A stretch of 64,000 bases of DNA, from NCBI RefSeq assembly GCF_000002995.4, contig NW_025062479.1:4211221-4275220 (forward strand), written 5' to 3'. This DNA comes from Brugia malayi. Lineage: Eukaryota; Nematoda; Chromadorea; Rhabditida; Onchocercidae. The notes beneath the pieces are model-generated. The model was not told the DNA's origin. It saw only the letters and a program-made list of their open reading frames with translations, and did no database searches. The translations under genes were made by a program, and so were the position numbers. Positions within the stretch are counted from its first letter, which is position 1; every line of letters starts with the position of its first letter. This document shows, in pieces, positions 42,719 to 47,089 of the stretch.

Positions 42719-44938
42719 TTATGATGAGTTAACCAATGGTATCAACTCCCGAAAAGCACTGTTTTCATCAATTTTCTCACTCTTCGATTCGAACAAATAA
42801 GCACGTTGAATAGCCAGAAATGTAGCCTTTGCAACTGGGCCTAATGTCCTGTAGCTGGATGCTGATGTATAACAATCTTGGATGCCACCTAAGTGCAGCA
42901 ACTTTTGTACTATAGGTGGTGCACTAACACCAGTACCGCGTGGAGCTGGATAAAGTGTTACTCGAACATCACAGTAACGAACCATTATCTAAACAAGCTT
43001 TCATCCAATTAAAATTCCTAAGATTTTAACTTTTACTACATTCCATTATTTCGTTTCAAAATAAATTTGTTATAGGGTGTAACGTTGAAAAATCAGTAAC
43101 AGTAGGCTGTTTAGATTGCAAGGAAAACAGGCATAGTAAGTACCTTGCAGGGTATAGTATGAGGTAAGCCATGTTCCGTGTGCCAATAGGCTCGTCGTAC
43201 AGGCACCACTGCTGTCTTTGCACGATAAATTGCAAGTCTGATCGCGGTGCTGACACGTTTTGCACACTGCATCCCAAGACCCACGTGCCCATTCTTGTCA
43301 CCAATAGCAACAAACGCTCGAAATCGAGTGCGCAACCCATTTCGAACTTCCTTTTGTACCGGAAGAATCTTCAATACCTGCTCCTTCAGATTTGGTACTA
43401 ATAGATCCACAATTTGATATTCCTGCAATTCTTTTATTCCTTTCTCTTTCATTAAATTTTAACTGGCGCAGCTTTGAGTAGGAACCATCAATTCGAAAAG
43501 AATTAAGTAATCGTTTCTTTCGTTAGAGAGTTTTTTTTTTTTAAAGATTACCGACGATTATATATATAACTGGCTCAACACACTATATAAATTTCAAAAC
43601 TGTGAAAGGAAACATAACCTTGGATTCAGAAAATTGATATTCCTGCAGTATATTTATTAGATGCAGTAAAGTAATTGACTTTTCTCTAGAATATGATTAA
43701 TACATTGAAGAAATAGTTAAAGGTGATATATGGATTTAGCAGCTTTAAAGTTTATAGCGATTGGTTTAAGTGTACTTGGCATGCTCGAGGCAGGTCTTCA
43801 TGTAGCAAATATATTTTCTACTATGCTAACTGGTCTTACAAGAAACCCTAAATCGAAAGGTAAGATGAAAATTTAGTTTATGTTGGTACTGGCAGGATTG
43901 ATTTTACGGGGTTGCTCGCGTTTGTTCTTGCAATGATGTTTGTTACTTAGCACATGTCAGTACAGTCAGGTCAACAGTATAGTCAAGCATACCATCAATT
44001 ATTTCAAATGCCATACCAAATTTAAGACCAAAATTTTCCAGTCTTTCTGTTTCATAGCGCTAGCGTATTCTGGCAGTAAACTTTTCAACCCCTTGAGACT
44101 CGGTTACCTTTAGAAGTGTCAGCGCTTTGTTTGTTATTACCCAACCCAGCCTGTTTCCCTTTGATTTCTGTGTTATGTTTCATCTATATGCAGGTTCCTT
44201 TCAATTCTTCCTTTATTTCCCCCCAAGTTTCGCACTAATCATGAGGCTATTATTGAATGACAATGACAAGGTGACCAACTAGGATGGGTATCGATCTATG
44301 ATAGATCTCTTCTATTGTAGCTACTCGTCCATCTTTTACCAAACGGCCAAGCTTTGTTACCGGAATCCATGGCTTATCCCAATCAATTGTTATACGACGT
44401 AAACCACTACCTATTCGCCGTGGTCCAGCACCTTGATTTCTCGTTGAACTGCAAGGTTTCTCAAGAATTTAGAAAATTGGAATTCTAAAAAGAGAAAGGG
44501 CTAATCTTATTTCTATCGCTAGTTTAACTATTAAATACGTTGAAAAATAAATATATACATTAATTTTCCGGTTTGGATGAATACCAAATAATAAATAAAA
44601 ACTCATTTTCAAAGATTACATAATGTTGAAATCAGTTTTTTATTTTATTAATGTGCAGAATAGATTCCATAGCTTTACATTTTCAGGAAGTGCGAAGGCA
44701 AATTCTGGTGGAAAGAACATGGGAGAATTCAATTTCAAAAAAAACTTTTAGTGGGCCAGATAAGGTGCAAACTGACTCAGAGAGTGAAAATTTTGCTTTT
44801 AAGGTTTGCAACAAATGTAGCTTGAGTATTTCTTTCTCGTTGAGAAGTAGTTTAGTTTAAATACCTGGACCATCTTTCATCAAAACTACCGGTGTTGACG
44901 CTGCCGAAACCACCCTGAAATCCTCCTCGACGGTCCAT
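42719..44938 (-). CDS. rps-2: ribosomal protein S2 (uS5), divergent
   Basis: Four exons: 44938-44865, 44448-44280, 43422-43144 and 42988-42719, 263 residues, all junctions phase-consistent. The N terminus [12 protein letters not shown] is followed by [78 protein letters not shown] and [19 protein letters not shown], the uS5 double-stranded-RNA-binding and C-terminal domains of the 40S subunit. uS5 lies near the mRNA entry channel. It departs from the usual highly conserved sequence in places: the segment after PHTIPCK reads [11 protein letters not shown] rather than the usual VTGxCGSVxVR. A CAG acceptor lies about 10 bases before the ATG. Intron 2 carries Wolbachia-like DNA on the opposite strand. 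It may be a fast-evolving paralogue rather than the main S2 gene. Confidence 0.85.
43730..43950 (+). pseudogene. atpE: Wolbachia-derived ATP synthase subunit c (atpE) pseudogene in an intron
   Basis: Starting at ATG 43730, the translation begins [19 protein letters not shown] and continues through [11 protein letters not shown] and RNPKSKG, the Rickettsiales F0 subunit c pattern (two membrane helices joined by an RNP loop). The frame hits TAG at 43874. A shift of one base then opens [20 protein letters not shown] to a stop at 43948-43950, the second helix. The total length equals a normal atpE minus one base. A relic AAGGTGAT ribosome-binding site stands before the ATG. It lies wholly in intron 2 of the RPS2-like gene, antisense to it. 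One deleted base plus odd substitutions (GMLEAGLH) mark it as non-functional. Confidence 0.75.
43945..44115 (-). pseudogene. fragment of a bacterial polyprenyl diphosphate synthase, probably Wolbachia
   Basis: On the minus strand a short frame reads [20 protein letters not shown] followed by YTVDLT, resembling the second Asp-rich motif of octaprenyl/farnesyl diphosphate synthases (usually NxGxAFQIxDDxLDYxxD). The key DD pair is changed to DG, and only about 45 codons remain, with a TAG just upstream. It abuts the atpE relic tail to tail, so the inserted bacterial DNA appears to be a mosaic or a contiguous decayed block. Homology is by motif only. Confidence 0.45.
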
Positions 44939-47089
44939 TGTATAAAACCTGAACGAAAGTTCCAGAATGAAAGTCTCTCAGTAATGACTGTGTATAGTAA
45001 TCTGATCACATAATAGATACATTTCAAAAATTGTCTATAAAATTCAATATGATTTTCGAGGAAAAATATTAATCTCAGTTAGTCAGAAAATTATTTAAAC
45101 CCAATCACACACGGACAATAAAGTACTGGGACTGGGTAATAGTTTTAACTAAGTTTAGCAATAATAAAGCATACAAATAACAAATACATAGATAGGCTTC
45201 TGAAAAAAGAACCTTGTTGAAATCACTGGACACTGGGACATATAATGAGTCCACAAACACAGAAACACACACACACACACACACACATAGAAAGGAAGAA
45301 AGAGAAGAAGAGGGACGCAAGCCTAGTATGCGCAAGCAATCAATATAAAGTACTGGGACTTCTTCATTTAGATGCCTCATAATTAAAATGATTTTCCTAA
45401 CCTTATGTTTTTTAAAAGTATCAGATGTTATCTGCACTACCACCAATACAACCCGCTCACAGCTTCTTTAGCAGTCCTGCAGAATCCATTGAGAAAAATG
45501 GAGAAAAAATATTCATAGCTTCAGCATGTAGAAGAGTAAAGAAAGAGGAGAAGGGGGTCACAAGCTCAATTTTCAAACTATATTTTTTGGGAACAATACT
45601 GCGAGATTACTGTCTTCCTAATTTTATAAATGACTAATTAATAGGAAATCTTAGCAAAACAATGCCATAAAATGGATGAGTGTTGTTGCATCAGGAGAGC
45701 AAGCGTTTATCATTACCATGGGAACACATTATGTGAGCAAATCTGAAACAGTTCTGAACAAATGACAGTTTTCAATTACTGTAGTCTTTTGCAAACCCTT
45801 GAATACTATTATTTTTAATTCAGAGAGGTACTATAATTTAAGTTTCGGACTTTTGAAGCTCAAAAATCACTAAATGGACATCCTTATCACTTCATACAAG
45901 ACAATCTGTTATGGAAATGGTTGCGCTGCTTAGTGAAGAAATGAAATCAAAAAGACGACAATGTTTTGAAATATATTATAGTTTATGCCCACTATAAATG
46001 GAACACTGTCAAACAAAAACTATCAGAGAAAATCTTTTGCGTGTTGAAAACATTAATAAGTGGTTTCACGTTTCACTGCAGTATAAATTTCACGGAGAAC
46101 GCAATCAAATTGAAAGAGGATTTCAATTAACCCATTGAAATCCAAAGAACTAGTGATTGGAACTCAGCTTGTATTGGTCAGCTATGAGAGCATTTGTAGC
46201 CAAACCGAAACAACGACAGATTCAGCTTAGTTCTCTGACTGTGAGGTAAATTCACACAAGACAGTTCATGAGGCTATCAGTGTTTCGCTTCTATGATGAG
46301 AATTAAAACTTTCGAGAGAGGATGAATAGCTACTATACATGGTAGTGGTGTATTAGATCTACTCCGTTCTAGGTCTCTTCTCTATCAACTCCCAGTGGTG
46401 ACATCTGTCGCTTCACTACTTCCTCTCCTCTCGCAGCTGCCCCTTGTTAATAGGGAGTTTCCATTTGGGACACAAAATTGCATGGGGTTACGATATTGCA
46501 CGCCGTAGCAGCTATTTGGCATAGGACGTCATCCTCAAATAGCCGTGTGAGTTTATATGGTGGCGAGGTTTGTGTAAGGGGTGGATAACATCTGATGGCA
46601 TCGGAATGACCTGTTAGGATGGACTGGTGGACGGTGGCTGTTGATTGTTATGTGGTGTATTGGGTAAGCGAGATTCTATACCACTGAAATGGTGTTATGT
46701 CTTTTACAGTACGAAGGTTGTGTAAAAGAATTTGACGAAGTGAAATAAATTTGGTTTTTTTATAGCGTAACTGATTATCGTGTTGAGATATGTCAGCTGT
46801 GCTACGAACTTCAGCCTTATGAGAGCTCTGACTAATGCCATGTAACGAAGTTGGAGACGTCAAATAAGTCATTTCCTTCCTCTCCACTGGCTCATAAATA
46901 TTAGAAGTTCGGTATTCTAATCAATAGATTTTGTACAAGTTTCGTGCGAGTTCCGTTTCCTTGTAGAGATGTTAAAGAATGCTTAACTTATTGAACTGAG
47001 GTGGTGTTTGGAAATCAGCTGGACTTTGAACATCATCCCACTTTGTTCCTACGGTGGGGATCAATTGAACAAATCATTTTTAGGGAGAT
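44939..47089. other. divergent promoter region, low-complexity patches
   Basis: About 2.1 kb between the minus-strand RPS2-like gene and the plus-strand kelch-like gene. It holds a CA microsatellite (about 45265-45287), two copies of a TAAAGTACTGGGACT motif (near 45120 and 45347) and a less AT-rich patch at 46340-46640 that could be a promoter or 5' UTR. No supported exon was found. Open frames at 45105-45446 and 46648-46887 have no coding character. Confidence 0.4.
45265..45287. repeat. CA dinucleotide microsatellite
   Basis: About eleven AC units in the intergenic region upstream of the kelch-like gene. Confidence 0.9.

Follow-up and report, generated by a model that had tools for sequence, protein, structure and literature searches.

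A decayed mosaic, very probably of Wolbachia origin, in an intron of an X-linked RPS2 paralogue of Brugia malayi

The window analysed here is a 64-kb stretch of Brugia malayi chromosome X (4,211,221-4,275,220). A gene on its minus strand is a paralogue of RPS2 (uS5), and intron 2 of this gene carries a mosaic of three scraps at 43644-44218, two from Wolbachia and the third probably so, named F1, F2 and F3 in the following list of features (window positions).

42719..44938, minus strand: RPS2 (uS5) paralogue, four exons, 263 aa (GT-AG borders and a joined open frame; PF00333, PF03719)
44938-44865, 44448-44280, 43422-43144 and 42988-42719, minus strand: exons 1 to 4 of the RPS2 paralogue
43423..44279, minus strand: intron 2, 857 bases, phase 0, donor GTTGGT, acceptor TTGCAG
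43414..43427: copy 1 of a 14-base direct repeat, over the true exon 3 acceptor
43634..43647: copy 2 of the 14-base direct repeat, abutting the start of F1
43644..43959, plus strand: F1, a decayed piece with the end of atpB, the leader and almost the whole of atpE (blastn matches of 84-85% with wLbra and the Spi319 MAG; tree)
43971..44055, minus strand: F2, an 85-base piece of a polyprenyl synthetase gene (77-86% matches in 9 of 12 Wolbachia-type genomes; PF00348 in one homologue)
44067..44218, minus strand: F3, probably a fragment of an IS66-family transposase (matched at 82.5% by a decayed copy on contig C1 and at 77% in the Wolbachia sp. DFT4 MAG)
43058..46491: duplicated segment that takes in the first two exons, most of exon 3 and all of the mosaic (inverted copy at C139:4281148-4284530, outside the window)

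The joined reading frame of 263 aa has no internal stop, and a Pfam search found both S5 domains in it (PF00333, E 1.6e-22; PF03719, E 1e-17). Exon 44448-44280 joins exon 43422-43144 in phase 0, and the placement of the insert in nuclear DNA, within intron 2 and with the host phase intact, as claimed in an earlier note on this DNA, was thereby borne out. The same note had taken the host for a housekeeping-type RPS2 gene, and here it was mistaken: canonical RPS2 is a separate gene on chromosome X (C139:5233248-5235094), about 1 Mb away and 59% identical to the window's gene over 190 residues. The host is a divergent RPS2 paralogue and, judged from sequence, the housekeeping copy lies elsewhere. 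The intron of canonical RPS2 at the same K|E codon border measures 100 bases, that of the paralogue 857; 575 of these 857 bases belong to the mosaic, and the gene is still open. A predicted protein of B. pahangi is 98% identical to the paralogue over its full length, those of D. immitis, S. digitata, E. elaphi and L. sigmodontis are 84%, 83%, 83% and 77% identical, and partial ones are found in W. bancrofti (72% over 68% of the length) and B. timori (96% over 60%). The presence of predicted proteins in seven other filariae indicates that the paralogue is old and conserved. Its frames and these relatives suggest that the gene is spliced across intron 2 in B. malayi. Rfam and tRNA scans of the 64-kb window gave no matches.

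F1 was compared with 19 loci, 12 of Wolbachia type and 7 of Ehrlichia/Neoehrlichia, a set that does not include wBm. Two of the 12 (L008 and L012) are labelled just Rickettsiales bacterium, and were counted as Wolbachia because they are placed among Wolbachia in the tree. At the DNA level F1 matched all 19 at E 1e-3 or better, the best match being 85% over 324 columns (E 1.5e-100). The atpE-like frame starts at 43730, is preceded by a relic AAAGGTGATAT leader and stops after codon 48; its amino acid identity to AtpE is 77-83% for the Wolbachia-type loci and 62-67% for the Ehrlichia/Neoehrlichia loci. The 48 residues alone score 20.4 bits with Pfam ATP-synt_C, under the cut-off of 24 bits.

For F2, PF00348 (E 6e-70) identifies the matched gene in one Wolbachia-type genome as that of a polyprenyl synthetase; to judge from their translations, the neighbouring ORFs are rpsP-, grpE- and trpS-like. 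No match to F2 was found in three of the 12 Wolbachia-type genomes, namely those of wDi, wPpe and the Spi319 MAG. In both single-chromosome Wolbachia genomes in which F1 and F2 were both matched (G002 and G003), the two matches lie more than 200 kb apart.

F3 matches one of the 12 Wolbachia-type genomes (Wolbachia sp. DFT4, 77%) and, at 82.5%, contig C1 of the B. malayi genome, where a decayed copy lies. Another DFT4 ORF shares the F3 stretch at the protein level (48% over 31 residues) and has an IS66 match (PF03050, E 9e-6); F3 is therefore probably a transposase scrap. F3 itself is not named by Pfam, two pieces of its C1 relative are without a Pfam match, and of the 20 candidates in a protein search with the C1 reading over F3, one was a match, an unnamed protein that belongs to no Pfam family at the cut-off. 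With one of 12 genomes matched and the C1 pieces lacking Pfam matches, both the Wolbachia and the IS66 labels of F3 are given as probable. A reading of F3 as a host repeat was considered and dropped after the matches in DFT4 and W. bancrofti had been found. Across F3 and F2 in B. malayi there are a stop and a gap, and the frame is broken.

These matches agree with the earlier note in its Wolbachia origin, in the strong nucleotide match that it expected and in its atpE and prenyl-synthase fragments on opposite strands. Its near full-length atpE with one frameshift was right as to the extent and the loss of frame, and a small deletion has to be added. The synthase scrap is likewise real while the Asp motif claimed for it is decayed, and to the two bacterial pieces recognised there, both of which were found, the scrap at 44067-44218 is to be added as a third.

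One tree was built, for F1, with 12 rows and no nematode row; F2 and F3 were placed by pairwise matches alone. F1 nests within Wolbachia diversity, where it pairs with wLbra, the Wolbachia of Litomosoides brasiliensis (91/88, a fork that is not starred), within a starred clade of four. We take wLbra to belong to supergroup D, and the donor of the mosaic was most likely a supergroup D Wolbachia. In raw DNA identity, F1 is a little nearer to the Spi319 MAG than to wLbra (85.2% and 84.1%). The second half of AtpE is of two types in Wolbachia, KIYVY.GA.MVEF in L008, L016 and L017 versus KKY.YTGAALVEA in L009-L015 and L018, which may reflect recombination within Wolbachia.

Changes private to F1 were counted against wLbra and the Spi319 MAG. 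There are 17 in 218 coding sites, distributed 7:5:5 by codon position, of which 4 are synonymous and 13 not; this is close to the shares among all possible changes (24% synonymous, 73% not). A further 10 were found in 85 upstream sites. The wLbra branch has 8 coding changes (1:1:6) and 7 upstream, and the Spi319 MAG branch 11 coding changes (4:3:4; 6 synonymous and 5 not) and 1 upstream. Since wBm is absent from the comparison, changes in the donor lineage and changes after the transfer are not separable in the F1 count. The pattern in F1 fits a dead copy weakly, since few changes are involved and those on the living Spi319 branch are evenly distributed as well. The broken atpE frame is a firmer sign of decay than the codon-position pattern.

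A search of the B. malayi genome with the wLbra atpE region matched only the insert and its duplicate. Positions 24001-64000 of the window were also searched against four Wolbachia-type genomes, and the best 40 of the 51-80 candidates for each matched only the mosaic and about 41 bases at 45146-45186. The latter stretch is 88% identical to the Spi319 MAG (E 3e-5) and had no match in the other three genomes searched.

Aligned with the segment in the window over 3434 columns, the inverted duplicate of 3.4 kb shows 3 mismatches and a single gap of 51 bases, and it places a second copy of the insert about 23 kb away. The duplicated stretch stops short of the end of exon 3 and does not reach exon 4, and the gene copy in the duplicate is therefore broken. 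Its near-identity points either to a duplication that is recent and followed the insertion, or to later gene conversion. A large palindrome at the end of the window was considered and rejected, as no inverted repeat of 200 or more bases occurs in 38000-64000 and the duplicate is confined to the 3.4 kb. As to the 14-base repeat, a 14-mer in common with the 40 bases around the acceptor occurred in 1 of 5000 simulated introns, a test made after the repeat had been seen. The stretch between the two copies matches only itself and the duplicate in the genome. The repeat may be the trace of a repair event. The copy at the insert edge, carrying the sequence of the exon 3 acceptor, could serve as a decoy acceptor.

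A W. bancrofti prediction of the same gene (P0007) has 49 extra residues between exons 2 and 3. Of these, 43 align to F3 and F2 as they are joined in the window (57% over 44 columns, E 2e-7); the frame is open throughout in P0007, and the window's sequence has a gap and a stop. Residues 18-44 of the extra piece are 52-74% identical to Wolbachia synthases. The same F3-F2 junction in the same intron of W. bancrofti indicates common descent, and on the evidence of this one protein model the insertion is most likely older than the separation of Brugia and Wuchereria. The insert may thus be useful for dating, as the earlier note proposed.

As the 43 residues are read without interruption between exons 2 and 3 in P0007, one could suppose that the bacterial DNA is put to use and that F3 and F2 form an exon of the RPS2 paralogue in some filariae. 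We regard this as unlikely: P0007 stands alone as an unnamed prediction, from a contig of 6,983 bases, and the 3′ end of the model runs into the next intron; the E. elaphi and L. sigmodontis models are also off at the exon 2-3 border, where the donor in the window is weak (GTTGGT); and in B. malayi the frame is broken at F3-F2. A protein search with the extra piece of P0007 returned P0007 alone (one of two candidates), a silence that says little because the search also missed the Wolbachia synthases. Should the gene model be true, a bacterial chimera of about 43 residues would be spliced in frame into a ribosomal-protein paralogue of W. bancrofti, the orthologous Brugia stretch having decayed; bacterial scraps would then have turned into an animal exon, which would be surprising, and we hold it to be improbable.

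B. malayi carries live Wolbachia, and its genome was present in the PacBio assembly step (PMC7181701), so that wBm reads misassembled into a nematode contig might be suspected. Such an artefact or contamination is very unlikely, given that the atpE piece is broken, part of a mosaic and about 15% or more diverged from each of the 19 loci, that in-phase host exons flank the insert on both sides within one contig of 24.9 Mb, that the genome holds two copies of it, and that its F3-F2 part recurs, at the protein level, in the W. bancrofti model. An origin of the atpE-like piece from a nematode cellular gene, for example that of mitochondrial ATP synthase subunit c, would draw on the conservation of subunit c across bacteria and eukaryotes and on the seven other PF00137 matches in the genome. 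We give it next to no chance: F1 includes the end of Wolbachia atpB and the leader and nests among Wolbachia, albeit in a tree without a nematode row, and the whole-genome DNA search with the insert returned its two copies and the C1 match to F3 but no ATP synthase gene. The better match to a nematode gene, which the earlier note had named as evidence against its reading, was thus not found in that search.

We therefore consider it very probable that the mosaic is a nuclear Wolbachia transfer (nuwt), in which joined scraps entered an intron of the X-linked RPS2 paralogue in the ancestor of Brugia and Wuchereria and have since decayed. End-joining repair of a break would probably have put together scraps from different places in a Wolbachia genome and lodged them, in one event rather than several, in an intron that already existed. 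After insertion the DNA presumably decayed neutrally and without function, being lost from the host transcript together with the intron on splicing, and it would later have been copied once through the short inverted duplication.

Nuwts are well catalogued in B. malayi, and the insert is therefore one more instance of a known phenomenon. The assembly contains 345 of them over 428,883 bp, mostly pseudogenes (PMC7181701). A 2013 report found junction reads in introns and UTRs at 23% of the expected number, and described a pair of neighbouring scraps that come from separate parts of wBm (PMC3849323). The present insert resembles the nuwts of these two reports in being made of decayed nuclear Wolbachia gene scraps, some of them duplicated, with junctions in introns or UTRs and scraps side by side; it differs in being short, diverged and inside the intron of a conserved gene. 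A survey of 22 filarial genomes assigned 95-98% of Brugia nuwts to supergroup D, in keeping with the donor proposed here, and found many Onchocerca nuwts to be orthologous between species, an orthology reported there for Onchocerca (PMC12693587). The accessible part of that survey describes no intron insert common to Brugia and Wuchereria with a joined transposase/prenyl-synthase scrap, and in a word search neither "intron" nor "atpE" occurred in its main text. Word searches of the main texts of PMC3849323 and PMC7181701 likewise found no atpE, and among the titles listed by full-text literature searches none concerned this insert, which may well be included in the published catalogue of nuwts (Supplementary Data 6 of PMC7181701).

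Having internal junctions of its own and being fixed in an intron of a conserved gene, such a nuwt makes a clean marker: knowing which filariae have it and which lack it would date a single transfer, and hence the symbiosis, with no need for a molecular clock.

Contig C1, which holds the relative of F3, also holds rpsE and was considered as a piece of the wBm genome. This was rejected, as 10 kb of it has three ORFs of 100 or more aa and decayed pieces, and we read C1 as nematode DNA that contains further nuwts. About 1.1 kb from the F3 relative it carries a bacterial-looking fragment of a lipoyl domain (L043:5218-5595). Bacterial-type pieces of rpsE occur in B. malayi at C1:46091-46510, C5:43112-43330, C5:55036-55176, C8:20519-20737, C63:24532-24750, C135:14699431-14699571 and C138:13388677-13388817, in open frames of 70-159 codons, one of them less than 2 kb from the end of C135; these multiple pieces are apparently duplicated nuwts.
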